Source: Chlorobium sp.
Lineage (GTDB): Bacteria > Bacteroidota > Chlorobiia > Chlorobiales > Chlorobiaceae
NCBI GenBank assembly: GCA_005843825.1
Contig: SZXX01000033.1
Location: 1-64,000 of the forward strand
Reading direction: 5' to 3'
Length of the DNA stretch: 64,000 nt
Of this stretch, positions 9,715 to 54,698 are shown piece by piece. Every line of letters starts with the position of its first letter. Position 1 is the first letter of the stretch. The translations under genes and the position numbers were made by a program. The notes under the pieces were generated by a model, which was not told where the DNA came from, made no database searches, and saw nothing but the letters and a program-made list of their open reading frames with translations.

Positions 9715-9894
9715 ACGTTTTAATGATTCTTATTTAAAGAATGATTGAATAAAACAGTTTTCTACCAACCTCTATTTTCCGTCAGCTGAGCAACTTGAAA
9801 AGGCTTAAGATAATAAAATTTCCGTGTAATAGACACGCTGAAATAACAAATTACCGTTTAAAAAAAGCCACATTTCTAAACCCCCGATACATCT

Positions 9895-11766: not shown

Positions 11767-12498
11767 TCAGTAGGTAACTTTCCAGAGAAAAAGACCGTTT
11801 GCAACGGCCGGCTTCACTGAATTTAATATCACCCTTGAGTCGAGCATGCTCTGGAACTCTTCAGCACTGAGAGCTCCCATTCCTGCGCATACCATTGTAT
11901 CAACCAGATAGCGCACCATACTCCTTAAAAAACGGTTTGCTGAAATCTGAAATACCAGATAGCGATCATACCGGTACCATTCACTGGCAGTAACAGTGCA
12001 GAGGCGACCCGGATTATCCCTATCCTCCTTGGAAAAGGCTGTAAAATCTTGAGTTCCAAGTAATGAAGCGGCAATCTCCTGCATGACCTCAATATCAGGT
12101 TTTCCATACGAACACCCGGCAAAGCGACCATAAATAGCTGAAGGTTCTTCAAGAAGAAAATACCGGTACTGCCTCTGGCGGGCACTGTGCCGTGCATGAA
12201 ATTCATAAGGCATTTCCTGAGGGTCACTCACCCTGATTGTGTCAGGCAGAACTGAGTTCAGCGAATGGACAATTCTTGGAAGATCAAGTGTTGAAGCGCT
12301 TAAAAAATTAGCGATCTGCGCCTTGGCATGAACACCCTTATCGGTCCGCCCGGCGGCGGCAAGCGAAATTTTTTCCTGCAGAATCATCCCGAGTGCCGCC
12401 TCTATCTCACCCTGAACGGTTGTTATCCTGCCAGACTGCCTCTGCCATCCGGCATAAGAAGTACCATCATATTCAACTGTAATCCTGATATTCTTCAT
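11767..12498 (-). CDS. truA: tRNA pseudouridine(38-40) synthase
   Basis: Makes pseudouridine at positions 38-40 of the tRNA anticodon stem-loop. The 243 residues are typical of bacterial TruA. Visible are the N-terminal VEYDGTSYAGWQRQ, the catalytic Asp in AAGRTDKGVHAKAQIANF, HARHSARQRQYRYFL and the C-terminal ANRFLRSMVRYLVDTM. The start at 12498 gives MKNIRITVEYDG, as in homologues. It precedes the lytic transglycosylase gene on the same strand with 99 bases between; the toxin-antitoxin cluster begins about 110 bases upstream. Confidence 0.96.
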   Translation of the reverse strand: MKNIRITVEYDGTSYAGWQRQSGRITTVQGEIEAALGMILQEKISLAAAGRTDKGVHAKAQIANFLSASTLDLPRIVHSLNSVLPDTIRVSDPQEMPYEFHARHSARQRQYRYFLLEEPSAIYGRFAGCSYGKPDIEVMQEIAASLLGTQDFTAFSKEDRDNPGRLCTVTASEWYRYDRYLVFQISANRFLRSMVRYLVDTMVCAGMGALSAEEFQSMLDSRVILNSVKPAVANGLFLWKVTY

Positions 12499-12610: not shown

Positions 12611-13492
12611 TCAGCCCTCAGGTAAAGTTTGCCTTCCATCTTTTATCGCACCAATCAATTTTCTGAGCTTTTCGTTGAAAAAACGGGTACTCCATAGCTT
12701 AAGACTGTGTTGCTCTGCAGGAGGCAGAAATGGGGCAACATCTTCGGCCGCATCTGACCAGAATATGCTCTGAATCTTGTTCTGCATAGCTGTATTGAGC
12801 CAATCAGCGTCGATGTTCAGGTGATCTCCGGCCCATGGACCATATTGATACAGTGCATTTTGCAGAAGCAGAAAATTCGGGATAAAGCCTTTGGCAACAT
12901 ACCAGCTGAAATCGAACCAGTCTAGACCCTTTATATAAGGTCGGCACATCAGGGCATGAACCTTGAGAGCAAAATTACTCGACAGATCTTGAGCGCACAG
13001 TTCAAAATCAAGAGGAAAATCAAGGTAGCGATAATCAAATCCGGAACCCTCTGGAGGCAAAGTATCGATTTCCAGATTGACTTTTAATTTGCGTGCGTTA
13101 CTGGTCCCGTAAAATGAGAGATTAAGCTGGCTGCCAATAGAATCATCCTTCAGCATCGCCTGACGAACAGCACGATCCATATGGCCGCGATCAACAAGTT
13201 CACAATGGACACCAAATTCTGCCAACACTTCCCTGAGGGTTTTAAAATAAGGGCTCCAGATAAATTCAGGATCCGGGGTCAGGAGAATGAAATCAAGATC
13301 TTCTGAAAAACGAGACAATCCATGAAGAATGCGCAAACTGGTTCCTCCCTGAAAAGCGGCTACCTCAAAAAAACCAGCCCTCCATAACCCGTAGAGAGTT
13401 ACTTCCTGCAAAATCTCCTTGAGCGCATGCTCTTCGGACGAAGCATCAGCCGCCTTGTATTGTTGAAGGCGCTTCCGCAATAACTCAATCAT
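12611..13492 (-). CDS. AbiEii-type nucleotidyltransferase toxin
   Basis: A 293-residue nucleotidyltransferase of the AbiEii/type IV toxin family. The fold's signature is plain: FQGGTSLRILHGLSRFSEDL at the strand with the catalytic acids (SEDLDF), followed by the long helical C-terminal part typical of the family. Known AbiE toxins arrest growth and can abort phage infection, and some modify tRNA ends; whether this one does is inference. The gene starts 3 bases after the antitoxin gene ends, so the pair is one operon. It is the distal gene, as in other AbiE modules. Nothing suggests inactivation. Confidence 0.88.
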   Translation of the reverse strand: MIELLRKRLQQYKAADASSEEHALKEILQEVTLYGLWRAGFFEVAAFQGGTSLRILHGLSRFSEDLDFILLTPDPEFIWSPYFKTLREVLAEFGVHCELVDRGHMDRAVRQAMLKDDSIGSQLNLSFYGTSNARKLKVNLEIDTLPPEGSGFDYRYLDFPLDFELCAQDLSSNFALKVHALMCRPYIKGLDWFDFSWYVAKGFIPNFLLLQNALYQYGPWAGDHLNIDADWLNTAMQNKIQSIFWSDAAEDVAPFLPPAEQHSLKLWSTRFFNEKLRKLIGAIKDGRQTLPEG

Positions 13493-13495
13493 ACA

Positions 13496-14140
13496 TTACG
13501 CCCCTCCCTTAAGTGACATGATAAATGTTACAAGACGTTTATGCTGATAAACGGGGAGCATACGCTGCAACTCCTCATCCTTAATGCTTGAGAGCAGCTC
13601 TTTATCGATACGCATGCTTTCGCCAAGTACCGAGATACCGGAATAATCCCGCTTGCGCAAACAGACAAGATCCAGAAGAGCCCGTAATGGCTGTGCTACC
13701 AGCGCAGTCTGACCAACCAAAGTTACACGATCAACACCTTCCAGAAAATAGCCACTCCTTAGTGCTAAAGGATAAAAACGGAAAACACCAAAGATCGGAA
13801 CATCAATTTCCTGCTTCCGTGACCCAGGCGTGACCGACATCGTTACCGGCGTTGCTTCCGGAATCCATCCATGATAACTAAGAGCTGTTTCAAAAGAGAT
13901 ATAAGAGCCCGCTTGAAGCGACTGGGCTAAAACAAAGGGATGAACTTTTCGATTCTGCAAGGCTGATGCCACAAGATAACGGCCCCGCCGAAGGTGCAGC
14001 AACTCACCCTGGTGCAATGCCCGATTAACTAAATTATAGCGCTTTTGCGGCGAACCGTCGAGCAGCCGTGCTAACTGGCCATCGGTAACAACGCGCTCAC
14101 CCAAATCGGCCTGCTGGATTTTTTTAACAAGCATATTCAT
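13496..14140 (-). CDS. AbiEi-type antitoxin and autorepressor
   Basis: A 214-residue partner of the nucleotidyltransferase toxin. The N-terminal 80 residues form a winged-helix region (RLLDGSPQKRYNLVNRALHQ and then GELLHLRRGRYLVAS). The next block, YISFETALSYHGWIPEATPV, is characteristic of AbiEi C-terminal domains. Known AbiEi proteins bind inverted repeats in their own promoter, and a perfect 10-bp inverted repeat lies at 14149-14173, ending 8 bases before the ATG. I take the first ATG; a second lies two codons on (MNM). The toxin gene follows after 3 bases. Confidence 0.87.
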   Translation of the reverse strand: MNMLVKKIQQADLGERVVTDGQLARLLDGSPQKRYNLVNRALHQGELLHLRRGRYLVASALQNRKVHPFVLAQSLQAGSYISFETALSYHGWIPEATPVTMSVTPGSRKQEIDVPIFGVFRFYPLALRSGYFLEGVDRVTLVGQTALVAQPLRALLDLVCLRKRDYSGISVLGESMRIDKELLSSIKDEELQRMLPVYQHKRLVTFIMSLKGGA

Positions 14141-14148
14141 TTTTGCAA

Positions 14149-14173
14149 GATACTTTCATAATTTGAAAGTATC
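14149..14173 (-). promoter_or_regulatory. Operator/promoter candidate of the AbiE-type module
   Basis: A perfect inverted repeat, GATACTTTCA at 14149-14158 and TGAAAGTATC at 14164-14173, is separated by 5 bases. Read on the minus strand, TTGATA is followed after 17 bases by TATCTT, so the repeat arms nearly coincide with possible -35 and -10 boxes. If that promoter is real, transcription would begin at or very near the antitoxin ATG, giving a leaderless message repressed by AbiEi. The palindrome is seen; the promoter reading is inference. Confidence 0.7.
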
Positions 14174-14223
14174 AAACATTTAATAAAACAAGGGGTGCAA
14201 AAAGAAGGGCGAGGGAAATGATT

Positions 14224-14631
14224 CTATAAACAACCGTTTATCCTTAAGAAATCAGTAGGGTTAAGAATGGGAATATCCTTCCACAATGCCAGTTCAAGCA
14301 AATGTTTATCCCCCGATACAATAGCCTTGGCCTCGGCAGCATCCGCAGCCTCAAGCATCCGATTATCATCAGGATCAAGAGTTATAATGTCGATTGAATT
14401 TTGGGGAATCACAAACGTAAACGTATCCCTGAAGAGCCCTATTATCCGGTATACCTGCTCAGGCAAAAGTCCGAATTTTGGACGATGCAGAACCTCCTCA
14501 ACCTCTTGGATAATTTCCGGAGAGATACAATTAATTACTTTACCCGATGAACAAAGCTGCAATACTTCCCTCGGATTTCCGCCAAAAAGAAACCCGGAAA
14601 TGAGAACATTGGTATCACATACAATCCTCAT
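14224..14631 (-). CDS. PIN-domain toxin (VapC-like RNase)
   Basis: A 135-residue PIN-domain protein of the family often labelled putative toxin component near PilT. The N-terminal CDTNVLISGFLFGGNPREVL holds the first acidic residue (Asp6). LDPDDNRMLEAADAAEAKAI carries the middle acidic cluster, and SGDKHLLEL with ILNPTDFL ends the active site. Such proteins are metal-dependent RNases. The gene overlaps the end of the upstream RHH gene by 4 bases (ATGA), so the two are translationally coupled. It is the distal gene of the second module in the cluster. Confidence 0.87.
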   Translation of the reverse strand: MRIVCDTNVLISGFLFGGNPREVLQLCSSGKVINCISPEIIQEVEEVLHRPKFGLLPEQVYRIIGLFRDTFTFVIPQNSIDIITLDPDDNRMLEAADAAEAKAIVSGDKHLLELALWKDIPILNPTDFLRINGCL

Positions 14632-14879
14632 TCCGATTTGACTCTCGCAGCGCGAACAGCCTCTATCTCCCCGGCCACATCATCCTCAGTCAGCTGATTC
14701 TCCAACAACACTTTATCGCCAAGCAGAAAAAAATCATTCCACTGATTCCTGCGTTCAATATAAAGCCTCGCAGCCTCCCTGATCAGTTCAGATCGACTTC
14801 TGAATTCTTTTCTGGCTGTTTTATCGATTTCATTCAGTAATGAATCCTGAAAAGCAATATTAACAGTGACGGTTGGCAT
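14628..14879 (-). CDS. Ribbon-helix-helix antitoxin (CopG/ParD-like)
   Basis: An 83-residue protein whose N-terminus gives the DNA-binding strand TVTVNIAFQDSLLNEIDKTA, followed by the turn FRSRSELIREAARLYIERRN, a standard RHH_1 domain. The acidic C-terminal half (LTEDDVAGEIEAVRAAR) should bind the PIN toxin encoded next, whose ATG overlaps this stop codon. Two nested inverted repeats directly upstream (14893-14941) are the probable operator for autorepression. Confidence 0.87.
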   Translation of the reverse strand: MPTVTVNIAFQDSLLNEIDKTARKEFRSRSELIREAARLYIERRNQWNDFFLLGDKVLLENQLTEDDVAGEIEAVRAARVKSE

Positions 14880-14892
14880 ATCAATTTCATTT

Positions 14893-14941
14893 AAAGATTA
14901 CAAGGCAATATACAAACCTTGTACATTACATCGTAATCTTT
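14893..14941 (-). promoter_or_regulatory. Nested inverted repeats upstream of the RHH antitoxin gene
   Basis: The outer pair is AAAGATTAC (14893-14901) with GTAATCTTT (14933-14941). The inner pair, sharing bases with it, is TACAAGG (14899-14905) with CCTTGTA (14917-14923). All arms are perfect. Position and symmetry suit a dimer-of-dimers RHH operator covering the promoter. The binding protein is inferred from adjacency. Confidence 0.7.
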
Positions 14942-15046
14942 AACCCGTATAAGGCTCCACCTCACCCCAAACCCATTGGAGGAAAAGAGAAAGTTGGTAA
15001 TGTGAAAAGGATGTTGAGGGAAGTGTAGAGCCGATATGCTCTAGAG

Positions 15047-15379
15047 TTATTCGGCTTTCAGCAATCTATCAGCAAGCATGGTAATAAAATCACGACGGGT
15101 TGATACAAACATGTACACATAAACGCGCTCTGGAACAACCTCATAGATAACTCTGGTTTGACCAACTAACCTTTCGCGAATTCCTTGCAGGCCAAGCTGA
15201 ATAGCTTCATCAGGCACTAAACCAGCAGAAGGAAATTCCCCGATATTTTTCAGCATCTCTTTATACTTCAGATTTGACTCCTGCCAGACCTTGACACCAA
15301 ATTTCCTTATCACATATTTTTTAATTTCGCGATAATCGTCCTTTGCGCTCTCTAAAACAAAAACTGAATGAGCCATCAC
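15047..15379 (-). CDS. RelE/ParE-superfamily toxin
   Basis: A 110-residue small basic toxin. The N-terminal VFVLESAKDDYREIKKYVIR and the later GIRERLVGQTRVIYEVVPER with VYVYMFVSTRRDF match the RelE/ParE fold (beta-hairpin with the R-x-IYEV strand). RelE members cleave mRNA on ribosomes and ParE members poison gyrase; the split cannot be decided here, though the N-terminal helix pattern and the ending VSTRRDF resemble ParE-like proteins. The start overlaps the stop of the Phd-type antitoxin gene by 4 bases. Either of two adjacent Met codons could be used. Confidence 0.85.
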   Translation of the reverse strand: MMAHSVFVLESAKDDYREIKKYVIRKFGVKVWQESNLKYKEMLKNIGEFPSAGLVPDEAIQLGLQGIRERLVGQTRVIYEVVPERVYVYMFVSTRRDFITMLADRLLKAE

Positions 15380-48808: not shown

Positions 48809-51406
48809 TCATCCGGCTTTTGTCTTATTTCTAAAAAAGCCAAACCATTTCAGTGCCTCAAACCAGAGCACACTTGCAAGCCCAGCCAGAAAACAAATAA
48901 CAAGATCAAGGGGATGGATGCCGGCAAACTTGAATAACGTTACAAAAAAAGGAACATAGAGCACAACCGCAAGCAGGAGAACCGCACCAGCAAGTAACGG
49001 CAGCAAAGCATAATTGTAAGAACGCAGTGTTGCGATAAATGTTCGGCTCCACGACCGGTTAGTCAAAATCAGGGCAAGATTTGAAATAATCAGTGTTGTA
49101 AAGGTCAATGCCCGCAATTCCGGCTCACTATCTCCCCTGTTGAGGGAATACCAAAAAACACCAAGAACAACAGCAAGAACAATAACTCCCTGCATGATAC
49201 TTAAAGCTATCGTTTGACGACTGAAAAGGGGCTCTCTGGAGTTACGGGGCCGTCGCTTCATAACATCTTCTTCCTCCTCTTCAGCTTCAAAAACAATGGA
49301 ACAGGCCGGATCAATGATGAGTTCAAGAAAAGCGATATGTGCAGGCAAAAGAACAAGCGGAAAGTTAAACAGCACCGGAAAGATCAGCATCCCTGCAATA
49401 GGAACATGAACCGCCAGAGTATAGGCCATGGCTTTTCTGATATTGTCAAAAATCCTGCGTCCAATCCTTACCGCCTGCACAATCGAAGAAAAATCATCAT
49501 CAAGGAGCACCAGTGAAGCCGACTCCCTGGCAACATCAGTTCCTCGTCCACCCATAGCTATTCCAATGCTGGCGGCTTTCAGAGCCGGGGCATCATTGAC
49601 TCCATCCCCTGTCATCGCAACAATTTCTTCATTTGCCTTGAATGCCTTGACAAGTCTCAATTTCTGCTCAGGCACAACCCTTGCAAAAATATTCACATCA
49701 TTAATCATCTTCTGAAGATCAATGTCCGTCATAGCCTGCATTTCGGAGCCTGTCATAACCTTATCTGCATCATTCAGTCCTATCTGGCGGGCAATATTCC
49801 TGGCAGTACCGGGATAATCACCTGTAATCATCACCACACGGATTCCCGCACCATAGCATTCGGAAATTGCCGATGGCACCGTTGGCCGGACCGGATCAGC
49901 AAGCCCTATGAGACCAAGAAATTCAAAAACAAAATCATGCTGCTTTTCAGGTAATAATTGCTGCTGACTGAGTGCCCTTGCCACACCCAGTACCCGTAAC
50001 CCCTTATCGGCCATTTCGCTGATATGAGCTGACAGGAGCTCTTTCTCGGCGGCATCAAAATGACAAAGATCAATGATTGCCTCAGGAGCCCCTTTAGTAG
50101 CAACCACATACTCTTCTCTATCCGGTGATTTCCATACGCGGGAAAGTGAAAGCAGCTCTTTCGATAGCGGATATTCATGCACAAGCGTCCAGTCATGGTG
50201 CAGATGCTCACTCTCTCGGAGATAGTCTCTCCCTGTCTGCTTTATTGCCTGTTCCATAGGATCAAAAGGATCAAGCTGACTGGCAAGAATACTGTATTCG
50301 ATCAGTTCATGAAAGCCTTTCGGCATAGAGCCTTTTTGGTCCGATCCAATAGCAATAACCTCTCCCCCGGCAAAGAGTTTACTTACCGTCATACGGTTCA
50401 TGGTGAGCGTACCCGTCTTGTCAACACAGAGAACAGTCGCCGAGCCGAGAGCTTCTATCGCCGGCATACGTCGTGTAAGTACCTGTTTTTTTGACATGCG
50501 CCATGCCCCGAGGGCAAGAAAAATCATCAGAATAACAGGCAGCTCTTCAGGCAGGATTGACATGGCAAGGGTAATCCCGGCAAGTATGCCATTCAAGAGA
50601 TCGCCTCGGCTGAGACTATAGAATACAATCACCACAACGCATAAGAAAAGCCCGACAAACGCGAGATTACGAACCCATACCCCTGTTTCCTGCTGCAATG
50701 GGGTCTTTTCCGTCTCCACAGCCTGCAAAACCTTTCCGATTTTCCCGATTTCACTCCTGATACCGGTTGCTGTAACACGGGCAATCCCCTGCCCCTGAAC
50801 AACAAGGGTTCCCGAATAGATGAAAGGAAGATCATCTCCTCCCGGATGCACCTCTTTGCCGTCCGTTTCATTATCGGATTTTCTGACAGGAACAGATTCA
50901 CCGGTTAAAAAAGATTCATCAACCGAAAGATTGAGGCAGGAGAGAAGTCGGGCATCGGCAGGAACCCGATCACCCTCATTGACAATAACGATATCACCCT
51001 CAACCACATCGCGTCCAGCAATGCGCCGTTCACTGCCATCCCTGATAACCAGAGCTCGGGGGCTGGAAAGATCCCTTAAGGCTTCGAGCGCATTTTCGGT
51101 TTTTCGTTCCTGATAAAGGGTCAATCCCATAACAAAAAACACAAACCCAAGAAGCATGAGAGCCTCCTGTACATCGCCAAGAACCAGATAGACAGCTCCG
51201 CACGAAACCAGCAGCAGCAGCATCGGTTCTCGAATTACCTCAAAGGCGGTAGAAAAAATGCTCCGTCGCCCGGCAGATGGCAGCTCATTGTAACCGTCCA
51301 AAGCCAACCGTTCTGCAACCTCTGCAGCAGAAAGGCCAGCAAATCCATCGGAAGTTATATCGTTTTTCATAACCTGCATTTCGTGAAAGAAATGACTACT
51401 GAACAA
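48809..51406 (-). CDS. Cation-transporting P-type ATPase (P2A, calcium-type or similar)
   Basis: An 865-residue P-type ATPase. Order: cation-ATPase N-terminus (GFAGLSAAEVAERLALDGYN), actuator with LTGES, phosphorylation site CVDKTGTLTMNRM, and GDGVNDAPALKAASIGIAMG, then a C-terminal membrane domain with about ten segments in total. The M4 motif is ILPEELPVIL and not the PEGLP of SERCA-like pumps, so the ion (calcium, magnesium or monovalent) is uncertain. ATG 51370 (MKNDITSDG) is an equally good start. The PfkB-AAA-RyR gene lies 29 bases upstream on the same strand, close enough for one transcript. Confidence 0.92.
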   Translation of the reverse strand: MFSSHFFHEMQVMKNDITSDGFAGLSAAEVAERLALDGYNELPSAGRRSIFSTAFEVIREPMLLLLVSCGAVYLVLGDVQEALMLLGFVFFVMGLTLYQERKTENALEALRDLSSPRALVIRDGSERRIAGRDVVEGDIVIVNEGDRVPADARLLSCLNLSVDESFLTGESVPVRKSDNETDGKEVHPGGDDLPFIYSGTLVVQGQGIARVTATGIRSEIGKIGKVLQAVETEKTPLQQETGVWVRNLAFVGLFLCVVVIVFYSLSRGDLLNGILAGITLAMSILPEELPVILMIFLALGAWRMSKKQVLTRRMPAIEALGSATVLCVDKTGTLTMNRMTVSKLFAGGEVIAIGSDQKGSMPKGFHELIEYSILASQLDPFDPMEQAIKQTGRDYLRESEHLHHDWTLVHEYPLSKELLSLSRVWKSPDREEYVVATKGAPEAIIDLCHFDAAEKELLSAHISEMADKGLRVLGVARALSQQQLLPEKQHDFVFEFLGLIGLADPVRPTVPSAISECYGAGIRVVMITGDYPGTARNIARQIGLNDADKVMTGSEMQAMTDIDLQKMINDVNIFARVVPEQKLRLVKAFKANEEIVAMTGDGVNDAPALKAASIGIAMGGRGTDVARESASLVLLDDDFSSIVQAVRIGRRIFDNIRKAMAYTLAVHVPIAGMLIFPVLFNFPLVLLPAHIAFLELIIDPACSIVFEAEEEEEDVMKRRPRNSREPLFSRQTIALSIMQGVIVLAVVLGVFWYSLNRGDSEPELRALTFTTLIISNLALILTNRSWSRTFIATLRSYNYALLPLLAGAVLLLAVVLYVPFFVTLFKFAGIHPLDLVICFLAGLASVLWFEALKWFGFFRNKTKAG

Positions 51407-51435
51407 TCATAAATGAACATAGCGAAGCTTGCCGA

Positions 51436-54081
51436 TCATGTATTGGAGAGCTTTACTATTGTATAACCGGCCTCCTTCAGTAAACGAGGGATACTTTCTG
51501 AAACCAGCGAGCTGTCTTTATCTTTTTCCTCTTTCGACAGTCTTTCCCAATCGACAAGAAGAGCATGGAGCTTTTTCTCTTTGTTGGTATGAGGAGAATA
51601 TGTCCACCCATCTTTCAGTTTGGCATCCATCCACCTCTCATGTTCAAGTTTAGCCATTTCCTTCAGCTCCGGAATCGGGAATTCAACCGCTTGCTCATTG
51701 TTACGCATTGGAACAATGGCGTATCCAAACGTCGCGAGTTTATTGGGGATATCTCGGACAGCCGCACGATTCTCTTCACGTTCATGGGGTGACAGTGCCG
51801 TAAAGCTGACAAGGGAGCTGTGCGTTTTTGGATCCGCATCTTCATCGGTCACCTTTCCCCATATGTAGCCTTGGCTTTTAAGATTGTTATAAAACAATTT
51901 ATGGTTAAGACGGGCTAATTTTTCGAGAAGTTGTTCCCGGAGTTCAAGGTGATGAACAAGTGCCACAAAAGAGTGAGGATCAACATGCAGTCTTAGTTGC
52001 TCTTCGGGAGGGAGGTAGGAGCGATTGAAATGTGTTGCGTTTCCAAGCCTGCTCATAGCAACAATTGCCTCCATCGAACGGGACCCATGGCGATAAGAAT
52101 CAACCCGGAGAAAAGCTCGCATGATTCCGGTATCAATTCGGAGTTTATGGTTTACATCAAACAATTGAGGGGTCAACCGCTCGAACAATGATCGCAGAAG
52201 AAGTGCCCGTCGTACTATAAAATAAGGGTCATCACGTTCCTCAGAGAGTTGAGGATTCGGCCCAAGGACGTTGAGAAACCCTTTCAGGCGACTTAAAAAG
52301 TCGGGGGCTTTTGCTTCGACAAACTGGTTTTGTTTTTTTGATTTCGTAAAGGAATCGAGACTGGAGGAGGTGCCACCTGCAAAAACAAAAATAGCTTTCC
52401 CTATTGGATGGGTCAGTTGTCCTTGCTGAAACTCGCCGTCCTGCATTGGAGCAAGAAAAAAACGCAACCAGCCCAAAGGTTTCCCGTCGAGCGATGAATC
52501 AAACTCATCCCAGAACGCCAAAGGAATCTTACCTGATAAGGCTATATCCCTGATTTGATGAAAAGCATCAATGAGGTCAGCCGGACCTTTGAACTGAGAA
52601 AGATTAAAGGTAAGAGTTTTCTCAGCAATTTTTTTATCAGGACTGGCAACCTTGGCAATTTGCTTGACGGCAAATGATTTGCCTGACCCCGGAGGGCCAA
52701 AAACTGCTATTGAAACCGGACGCTCTTCCTGCTGATTACAATATTCTGCAATCAGACTATGAATACTTCTGAGTGACTCAATCTCCTGACGATCCACTGT
52801 AACCAGTTCTCCGAACTCACCAATTGGAACATTTTTCAATGCAGCTTTGGCGCCTTCAAGCACAATCCGGTGACTCAACTCTTCAAGGTCATCATGGTAT
52901 CGATCTCTGAGAATTGTCCAGGAAGAGGGCTGTGATTTGTTTTCTATATCAAATATTGGAAAATCAGCAGTTGCCAGTGGCGTCTCCAGACTTTTCAACG
53001 AAGTAACGACACCTTCAATGGGAAAGCGCAATCGGGGCGAAACGTCAGTATCTTTCTCATATCCGGCTTTATGGAGATAACGCATTGCAGTAACGCCGGA
53101 CTGAATTCCTTTGGTAAGATCAGGATTTTCAGTGTTGATGATGATTTCACGAACAATTCCAGCTAACAATACCGATGTTTTGCCGATAATTTTCCCCTTT
53201 CCTGCCGGCCATTCACGTTCCATGTAAAATGGATCAAAAAGAAGTTGAGGAGCTTCATCACTCTTTTTATGTCCGGGAAGAAGCACTGCTCCAGTCGGAC
53301 CAAAAGAAACAACACTATATGCTGAATGAGTTAGAGTATTGATCATGGGATTGTGAGTCAGTTCCCAGATAAGTTCCTGGGCTGTTTTTTCCCATGAAAT
53401 TTGAGCGCTGACCTGAATGGCCGACTGCCGCAAATCGTTAATGGATAAAACAACAATCAGGCGATCCGAAAATTTTGACACAAGATGCTCCCATAAGGCC
53501 CCCTCAGCGACAGGCCCTGACATCTTAACAATAATCCAGGGAGCTTTTTTATCCTTTAGAGGCTGACGTATCGACTGGGGCCAATGAGCAGGGTGATCTC
53601 TGAACCCAAGGTTTCCATCATCGATAACAATAATATCTGCATTTTTGGAACTCGCGGGCACATTGTCAACGCCATTGTGTTCCGTGGCTATTTTGGATGA
53701 CCGGTCAAGACCAAGAAAGCGCTCAACCCGCCAGATAAGGGTATCGGGAGCGTCCATGTCAGGGTAAGGAGCCCAGACAGAGTAACAATGGTAGTAGTGC
53801 GGGTCGTATGGATCAATCGGCTCTTGTGAGGTTGTATGAGTACTTGTAATCTCTATGGAAAAAAGCAGTTCTTCCTTGAGCTGATTCGACATGGCCGTAA
53901 TGAGGTCGACAAGAAGAGCTGCGCTGCCATATTGCCAGCTCATTCTGCAAATATCTTCTCCAATCCAGTCAGTTTGTTCATGCGATCCACGTGAGACATG
54001 TGCGATATTCCAGTCAATCGTAACATCACCTGTAACAAAAACTGAAAGAGCATCCTTTTTTTTCCGCATTGCCGGTAACAT
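51436..54081 (-). CDS. PfkB-like/AAA+/RyR-domain protein
   Basis: An 881-residue cytoplasmic protein in three parts. (1) Residues about 10-345 look like a PfkB/ribokinase fold (SVFVTGDVTIDWN; NADIIVIDDGNLGFRDHPA; SGPVAEGALWEHLV), but where the catalytic DTGAGD motif is expected there is IIGKTSVLLAG, so it is probably not a kinase. (2) Residues 455-640 are an AAA+ ATPase: Walker A GPPGSGKS (462-469), Walker B LAFWDEFDS (521-529), sensor FVFAGGTSSS (565-574). (3) Residues 770-875 match the RyR domain: LEHERWMDAKLKDGWTYSP (812-830), then HALLVDWERLSKEEKDKD. Function is unknown. RyR domains in bacteria have been proposed as ligand sensors in conflict systems; this is inference here. The P-type ATPase gene follows. 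Confidence 0.85.
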   Translation of the reverse strand: MLPAMRKKKDALSVFVTGDVTIDWNIAHVSRGSHEQTDWIGEDICRMSWQYGSAALLVDLITAMSNQLKEELLFSIEITSTHTTSQEPIDPYDPHYYHCYSVWAPYPDMDAPDTLIWRVERFLGLDRSSKIATEHNGVDNVPASSKNADIIVIDDGNLGFRDHPAHWPQSIRQPLKDKKAPWIIVKMSGPVAEGALWEHLVSKFSDRLIVVLSINDLRQSAIQVSAQISWEKTAQELIWELTHNPMINTLTHSAYSVVSFGPTGAVLLPGHKKSDEAPQLLFDPFYMEREWPAGKGKIIGKTSVLLAGIVREIIINTENPDLTKGIQSGVTAMRYLHKAGYEKDTDVSPRLRFPIEGVVTSLKSLETPLATADFPIFDIENKSQPSSWTILRDRYHDDLEELSHRIVLEGAKAALKNVPIGEFGELVTVDRQEIESLRSIHSLIAEYCNQQEERPVSIAVFGPPGSGKSFAVKQIAKVASPDKKIAEKTLTFNLSQFKGPADLIDAFHQIRDIALSGKIPLAFWDEFDSSLDGKPLGWLRFFLAPMQDGEFQQGQLTHPIGKAIFVFAGGTSSSLDSFTKSKKQNQFVEAKAPDFLSRLKGFLNVLGPNPQLSEERDDPYFIVRRALLLRSLFERLTPQLFDVNHKLRIDTGIMRAFLRVDSYRHGSRSMEAIVAMSRLGNATHFNRSYLPPEEQLRLHVDPHSFVALVHHLELREQLLEKLARLNHKLFYNNLKSQGYIWGKVTDEDADPKTHSSLVSFTALSPHEREENRAAVRDIPNKLATFGYAIVPMRNNEQAVEFPIPELKEMAKLEHERWMDAKLKDGWTYSPHTNKEKKLHALLVDWERLSKEEKDKDSSLVSESIPRLLKEAGYTIVKLSNT

Positions 54082-54496
54082 TAGATTTAGAAAAAAAAGC
54101 CGGGAGAGGCTTCTCCCTTCTTTTTAGAATATGATACCAACACGCCGAACCCACATAAGGTGCTATTGTATCCACGACTTTCAGAAATGATGGCTTTACA
54201 GTAGAAAATGTGCTTTACCAACCACATCCTGAATGTCGACAGTATATATTAAACCTATATTACATGGAATAAGTTTGAAACAGGACCCACTATAAGTTGA
54301 TTATTAATACACGATGAAAGCAACAGCCAAAAAAGCTGGCCTCATAAAGAAATAATGGGGCGCTGTACCAATAATTTCCAGTCTGATTATTTTGGCATTG
54401 CAACCGTTCTGATGACGGTCACTTCTCTTTTCCTTCTATGGAATTTTCTTGGCAACTGACGCATGGTGAACAAAGGGCTCGCGCGGTATAAAACGG
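54082..54496. other. Noncoding interval before the RyR-domain gene
   Basis: About 415 bases with no convincing gene. It must hold the promoter of the minus-strand PfkB-AAA-RyR gene. A short A/T-rich stretch (GTATATATTAAACCTATATT at 54241-54260) is a possible core. Nothing else is recognisable. Confidence 0.55.
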
Positions 54497-54530: not shown

Positions 54531-54536
54531 CTGGTG

Positions 54537-54609
54537 TCGGGGTGGCGGGATTCGAACCCACGACCTCTGCGTCCCGAACGCAGCACTCTACCAACTGAGC
54601 CACACCCCG
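54537..54609 (-). tRNA. tRNA-Pro (CGG)
   Basis: A 73-base cloverleaf on the minus strand: acceptor CGGGGTG/CACCCCG, D arm GCTC...GAGT, anticodon stem CTGCG/CGCAG with loop TTCGGGA (anticodon CGG), T arm GTGGG-TTCGAAT-CCCGC. CCA is not encoded. It is downstream of tRNA-Arg with 16 bases between, so both are probably on one transcript. Confidence 0.95.
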
Positions 54610-54625
54610 AAATGCCTCTTATCTG

Positions 54626-54698
54626 TGCCCTTGGGCAGACTTGAACTGCCGACCTTTAGTTTCGGAAACTACTGCTCTATCCACTGAGCTACAAGGGC
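54626..54698 (-). tRNA. tRNA-Arg (CCG)
   Basis: A 73-base cloverleaf on the minus strand: acceptor GCCCTTG/CAAGGGC, D arm GCTC/GAGC, anticodon loop TTCCGAA (anticodon CCG), T arm GGCAG-TTCAAGT-CTGCC. The outermost anticodon-stem pair is a G-A mismatch by this folding. CCA is not encoded. Confidence 0.93.

Follow-up and report, generated by a model that had tools for sequence, protein, structure and literature searches.

A gene in a 64,000-nt stretch of Chlorobium sp. DNA (contig SZXX01000033.1; this whole stretch is called the window) raises the question of what a bacterium does with a single protein that joins a probable PfkB-like part, an AAA+ ATPase and RyR domains. The reading frame of 881 codons plus stop is uninterrupted on the minus strand in an ORF check of the window (Table 1). 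The protein has full-length homologues with 31-96% identity, and pairwise dN/dS values against orthologues and a 61% paralogue are about 0.06-0.15, indicating that the 881-aa ORF is no chance frame. The gene is under strong purifying selection, with the lowest dN/dS of the three parts in the AAA+ region and the highest dN, in most comparisons, in the N-terminus. The three-part layout proposed in the first-pass annotation holds up, with the PfkB part probable rather than proven. A full-length AlphaFold model based on a 12-sequence alignment has a mean pLDDT of 34 and was set aside.

Table 1. Features of the RyR/AAA+ locus in window coordinates
Feature	Coordinates	Strand	Basis
Gene for the 881-aa protein, pseudo-PfkB-like / AAA+ / RyR-RyR	51436..54081	-	ORF, homologues, alignment, dN/dS
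N-terminal region, residues 1-365, probable ribokinase/PfkB-like fold without GAGD	52987..54081	-	hhalign; weak fold-search trend
AAA+ ATPase region, residues ~434-690	52012..52782	-	Pfam/PDB search, 12-member alignment
Walker A GPPGSGKS, residues 462-469	52675..52698	-	translation, alignment
Walker B PLAFWDEFD, residues 520-528	52498..52524	-	translation, alignment
RyR repeat 1, residues 716-789	51715..51936	-	PF02026 32.6 bits, above cut-off
RyR repeat 2, residues 807-876	51454..51663	-	PF02026 46.9 bits, above cut-off
Unit common to the L032 and L033 copies: gene plus ~220 bp leader	51421..54302	-	alignment
Leader hairpin then U-tract, terminator-like, shortly before the start codon	54102..54117	-	leader comparison
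tRNA-Pro 54536-54609 and tRNA-Arg 54625-54698, insertion-site neighbours	54536..54698	-	window annotation, empty-site comparison
P-type cation ATPase, downstream neighbour	48809..51406	-	homologue distribution

The RyR family profile (PF02026) matches the protein with E = 2.3e-19 and 69.9 bits over its whole length, against a curated cut-off of 27.4 bits, and the PDB matches of the C-terminus are ryanodine-receptor repeats and bacterial structures labelled 'putative ryanodine receptor'. A RyR core had been placed at residues 812-870; the profile search confirms the domain but not its single copy, since there are two repeats (716-789 and 808-876), each of which passes the family cut-off of 27.4 bits in the genome search that gave the per-repeat scores. 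Phage RyR-domain proteins were recently shown to bind or cleave cADPR immune signals (preprint PMC13232231); one of them, RyDEP, touches 3'cADPR via H75, W78, H100 and D117, of which H75 and D117 form the catalytic dyad (PMC13232231). Repeat 2 of the window protein carries H814, W817, H839 and D856, and the offsets of the last three from the first (+3, +25 and +42) are identical to those of the RyDEP residues. All 23 RyR modules in the comparison keep H814, W817, W826 and H839, those of the TrkA_N-RyR proteins of other families included, while orthologues at the queD and rfbA sites have Y, Q or R in place of D856. Binding therefore looks shared and hydrolysis does not, so that the property common to these RyR modules would be ligand binding. 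In repeat 1, H727, H754 and N771 are kept within the genus, with N at the position of the catalytic D of RyDEP.

The AAA+ region is 46-48% identical to the corresponding regions of a Methylobacterium and a Streptomyces homologue. The Walker A motif lies exactly where it was first annotated, and the Walker B motif is confirmed at a position one residue earlier than the proposed 521-529. The key Walker residues (including D525 and E526), R598 (in SRL) and R668 (in GSRS) are invariant or nearly so in 12 homologues down to 34-35% identity, and by their placement R598 may be the arginine finger and R668 sensor 2. The AAA profile PF00004 scores 18.7 bits on the 881-aa protein, under its cut-off, and PDB matches of the region are weak and scattered over AAA-type and other P-loop proteins. 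The region thus reads as a divergent AAA+ core with intact motifs.

Pfam gives no match to the N-terminus, even with the threshold relaxed to E = 10, and a PDB sequence search with it returns nothing significant. Compared by hhalign with PfkB proteins encoded in the same phylum, its profile reaches 30.2 (local) and 28.4 (global), whereas 60 column shuffles peak at 20.0 and 11.6 and reversal of the profile gives 12.3 and 4.1. The initial GDxxxD corresponds to that of PfkB, and the weaker segments IxxDD and GxxGA follow in the same order and are mostly collinear. The structure model of this part has a pLDDT of 45 and a pTM of 0.52, with a better core at residues 150-335, and a fold search with this low-confidence model places ribokinase-type kinases among the highest-probability matches, none of them significant. 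The earlier PfkB-like assignment thus has moderate support, from the profile comparison and a suggestive, non-significant fold-search trend but not from Pfam or PDB sequence matches, and a PfkB-like N-terminus is probable. The usual GAGD-type catalytic motif is, as first noted, missing: the aligned homologues have a GKGKIIGKTS-type sequence instead, so that a PfkB-like N-terminus would be a pseudokinase.

No system-level match to the 881-aa protein is found in PADLOC and NCBIfam, and none of the Pfam, NCBIfam and PADLOC libraries searched contains the PfkB-like/AAA+/RyR-RyR architecture. Within the reach of these tools, the host-side combination is apparently undescribed, while nucleotide-gated immune effectors and phage RyR-domain cADPR binders are already known. 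Of 65 genomes sampled from the window's genus, 23 carry family members, some near-identical and others more distant; three of the 23 (G044, G291 and G327) hold deleted remnants only. These remnants lie in place with internal deletions (L020/L041 in G044, L028 in G291, L023/L097 in G327), and the one in G044 has lost residues 97-512. Two genomes each carry two different family members at separate sites (G213:C34 and G213:C37; C25 and C28/C10 of G071). A sister genus has a 44% copy cut by a contig end, and the relatives that bear names in the genome collection are uncultured Chlorobiaceae MAGs. A scan of genome contigs, sensitive to close relatives only, finds relatives in Chlorobiaceae only, and a scan of viral contigs finds none. 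Distribution outside the phylum rests on plasmid and phage matches. A Methylobacterium plasmid encodes a full-length 31% homologue annotated 'RyR domain-containing protein', and a Streptomyces plasmid encodes a 34% homologue that spans residues 5-710 and is without the RyR module.

The gene had been described as accessory, and this is borne out by its patchy homologues, by at least seven genomic sites (tRNA-Pro/P-type ATPase in the window, OGG/secA, queD/radC, rfbA, purF, a SLATT operon and an HsdR/PIN region; queD, radC, rfbA, purF and secA named by reading of the sequences) and by an empty site in G157, G141 and G173, where the same tRNA pair is directly followed by the ATPase gene. The HsdR/PIN-containing site also holds tRNA fragments. 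The decayed region described beside the gene does not stand, as the stretch up to the tRNA pair consists of the gene's own leader and the tRNA terminator. The stem of the leader hairpin is spelled differently but can still pair in L032 and L034 and is absent in L031, and base-paired stem variants occur in several homologous leaders; the hairpin could possibly serve as an attenuator or insulate a mobile unit. In L032 and L033, copies at other sites, the match to the window runs through 54302-51421 and is followed by 85-117 bp from the beginning of the ATPase gene. These scraps of the ATPase gene's 5' end lie downstream of the RyR genes at L032:8148-8232 and L033:12666-12780. On the simplest reading, these copies would have left an ATPase-side locus and carried a scrap of the neighbour with them, and the comparisons together mark the gene as mobile. 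A fragment (9761-9806) and a longer copy (12021-12169) in L032 match the tRNA region of the window about 2.3 kb apart, and these duplicates are possibly the attachment-site duplication of a small island.

In the survey of homologue neighbourhoods, most copies stand alone among housekeeping genes and not in classical defence islands; a paralogue subfamily lies with a SLATT-type gene. In G213, the 61% paralogue is located 41 bp upstream of a 569-aa SLATT-type gene on the same strand, and G248 shows the same arrangement with its RyR gene cut by a contig end (spacing 41-47 bp, co-directional, in the two genomes). SLATT models match the 569-aa gene only below their cut-offs, the NCBIfam model SLATT_1 giving E 2.6e-8. 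The N-terminal half of this partner looks SLOG-like by eye (RIGVTGHR, SPLAKGADR), and no Pfam model backs SLOG there; calling it SLOG is no more than a hunch. In G213, the far side is taken by a DUF4062-NACHT-TPR gene, and DUF4062 was recently reported as a TIR-like NADase (PMC13174449). Elsewhere in the genus, SLATT-type homologues lie beside TIR and STAND genes (G044, G193), beside TIR and TrkA_N channel genes (G173), and beside a TIR gene with no confirmed STAND gene (G197); these neighbours are confirmed by Pfam in G044 and G173 and assigned by matching sequence in G193 and G197. One cluster in G173 (L111 in contig C5, 3652-11232) contains two TIR genes, a TrkA_N channel-like gene and a SLATT-type gene.

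Outside the genus, a search of 394 genomes from the phylum yields full-length RyR proteins only in the form of four TrkA_N-RyR proteins (G216, G034, G013 and G002, two of them from the same genus); G096 has a RyR fragment and G089 a sub-threshold match. The genes beside the TrkA_N-RyR genes of G216 and G034 have Pfam-confirmed TIR domains, and those in G013 and G002 are TIR-like by N-terminal sequence only. A Priestia plasmid has a 94-aa solo RyR gene whose direct neighbour encodes a nucleotide cyclase; a Pycsar effector and a TIR gene are close by. This Pycsar-type island (L175, 569-8778) includes the nucleotide cyclase, the solo RyR gene and the TIR gene downstream. The Methylobacterium plasmid homologue is close to a gene for a 2082-aa SIR2 protein with a ThsA-like stretch. 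The TIR/SLATT neighbourhoods are those of relatives of the RyR module and of the paralogue subfamily, not of the window copy itself. The RyDEP residue match, the TIR neighbours of other RyR proteins and the operon with the SLATT-type partner all lend weight to the earlier idea of a nucleotide-like ligand; a published survey of NAD and ADP-ribose in viruses does not mention RyR.

The window's genome, which is 98% complete, has no match to TIR, TIR_2 or DUF4062, and the SLATT-type partner is absent from it. Within the genus, TIR is found in 15 of 20 genomes with the RyR gene and in 28 of 45 without it (p = 0.40 on raw counts that ignore kinship). Because TIR occurs independently of the gene and the window's genome has no TIR match, a TIR signal from the same genome is no general requirement. 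Possible sources of the signal are a phage, a mobile element or a different NAD-consuming enzyme; alternatively, the protein may recognise some other nucleotide.

We propose that the 881-aa protein is a nucleotide-gated AAA+ ATPase in the NAD+/ADP-ribose signalling branch of bacterial conflict systems. The ligand of the tandem RyR module would contain adenine and be of the ADP-ribose type (2'/3'cADPR or ADPR), and it would be bound mainly by repeat 2, with repeat 1 as a degenerate partner that completes a two-fold unit, as in the RyR R12 domains or the RyDEP dimer. Ligand binding would switch the AAA+ ring, and the catalytically dead PfkB-like N-terminus would be a second part for recognition of a ligand or a protein. 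In one paralogue subfamily the output would probably be passed to the SLATT-type membrane effector, and in solitary copies, including that of the window, the protein itself may be both sensor and effector or may feed an unlinked effector. The RyR and AAA+ domains, the conserved ligand residues, the purifying selection, the mobility and the operon and TIR neighbourhoods of relatives are observed; the identity of the ligand, its coupling to the ATPase and a role in phage defence are inferred. We give about even weight to the reading of the protein as an ADP-ribose-type nucleotide receptor with a coupled AAA+ ATPase, and it is a credible candidate for a bacterial receptor of NAD-derived immune signals. 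The best reading of the gene is that of a mobile, mostly single-gene immune accessory. Only tentatively do we put forward the fuller picture of a one-gene mobile bacterial immune receptor, in which the tandem RyR module would read an ADP-ribose-type alarm and drive an AAA+ machine with a dead-kinase head; the alarm would possibly be made by a phage or an unrecognised enzyme, because the window's genome has no TIR or DUF4062 match. The Streptomyces homologue without RyR counts against the receptor reading, as it indicates that the core can work without the RyR module. The absence of TIR, DUF4062 and SLATT-type matches from the window's genome, the independence of TIR from the gene across the genus and the solitary state of most copies weigh the same way.

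Were the RyR module a sensor of general adenine nucleotides (ATP, ADP, AMP or NAD), the protein would instead be a metabolic or stress AAA+ chaperone or regulator with no immune role. In favour of this, ligands that contain adenine are bound by animal RyR R12 domains (PMC13232231), solitary copies are flanked by housekeeping genes, and recognised enzymes for ADPR signals are missing from the window's genome; the patchy presence of the gene, its decay in situ in close relatives, its repeated relocation and the TIR/SLATT neighbourhood of relatives with the same module nevertheless make such a general role unlikely. The same module could also hydrolyse or sequester cADPR-type signals, as the phage RyDEP does, and thereby shield a mobile element from host TIR systems or end an immune response. 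The window protein has the full H/W/H/D set of RyDEP with both residues of the catalytic dyad, the gene is mobile, and it also occurs in TIR-less genomes, where a sponge would be idle cargo and no pathway would be left broken. However, lineages at the queD and rfbA sites have Y, Q or R in place of the catalytic D, which rules out hydrolysis as the function shared by all; a strongly conserved AAA+ motor would be superfluous in a sponge, yet dN/dS is lowest there; and the operon with a SLATT-type gene suggests output rather than silencing. We regard an eraser or sponge as distinctly unlikely.

We judge it improbable that the protein is a toxin-like or abortive-infection effector, in which the pseudo-PfkB N-terminus would sense a phage trigger while RyR, bound to a normal metabolite, holds the AAA+ part off. 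The high dN of the N-terminus could suit a pathogen-facing part and single-gene mobility fits such an effector, but there is no known phage trigger and no direct evidence of toxicity. Least probable by far is a partnership with the neighbouring P-type cation ATPase, which would echo RyR-calcium biology in a bacterium and is invited by the shared strand and the 29 bp between the two genes. Close homologues of the ATPase are present in most genomes of the genus, far more than carry the RyR gene, and regardless of it; the ATPase gene follows the tRNA pair directly where the RyR gene is absent, and it is not adjacent in most genomes that have the RyR gene. The ATPase is thus probably no functional partner, a candidate largely refuted by its distribution and the neighbourhood survey.

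Among the closest known systems are RyDEP and the sponge-type phage RyR proteins (PF02026; PMC13232231), which belong to the same fold family and whose ligand and catalytic residues have an H-x2-W-...-H-...-D spacing identical to that of repeat 2 in the window protein. Whereas RyDEP is a phage homodimer, the window protein is the product of a bacterial gene with two non-identical repeats fused to an AAA+ part, and some of its orthologues have lost the catalytic D. The TrkA_N-RyR proteins (L092, L093, L026/L094 and L027/L095) have the same C-terminal R1-R2 tandem, with H, W, W, H and D kept in repeat 2, but they are putative ion channels with a neighbouring TIR gene, whereas the window protein has an AAA+ part in a genome without a TIR match. 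Thoeris (ThsB TIR and ThsA SIR2-SLOG) follows the same logic, in which an ADPR-type signal acts on a nucleotide-binding domain that gates the output; in the window protein, by contrast, the sensor would be RyR and the output AAA+, again in a genome without a TIR match, and PADLOC finds no ThsA match in the window protein. SLATT systems are 2TM effectors tied to nucleotide signals (PMC9503650), and the paralogue subfamily is operonic with a SLATT-type gene, whereas the window copy is without such a partner. QatA, the ATPase of the Qat anti-phage system, shows weak similarity in the AAA region (E 0.002), but the score is 16.7 bits against a 600-bit equivalog cut-off, QatA is without RyR, and no qatBCD genes adjoin the window gene. 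The PfkB/ribokinase family shares the GDxxxD start, IxxDD and GxxGA with the window protein, which is without GAGD and falls below Pfam detection.

If the one-gene immune receptor proves true, the protein would be a host-side counterpart of the phage RyDEP and would be related, on the bacterial side, to the animal RyR R12 regulatory domains; it would also touch the long-standing question of whether cADPR-type ligands are recognised by animal ryanodine receptors by means of the same domain. The family offers host-side candidates with the RyDEP pocket residues and natural variants at the catalytic position (D versus Y, Q or R), together with a SLATT-type-linked paralogue and TIR-linked channel-like relatives. 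Elsewhere in the window, positions 12611-15379 hold what looks like an AbiEii/AbiEi-type pair followed by PIN-like and RelE-like small genes, as judged by eye.
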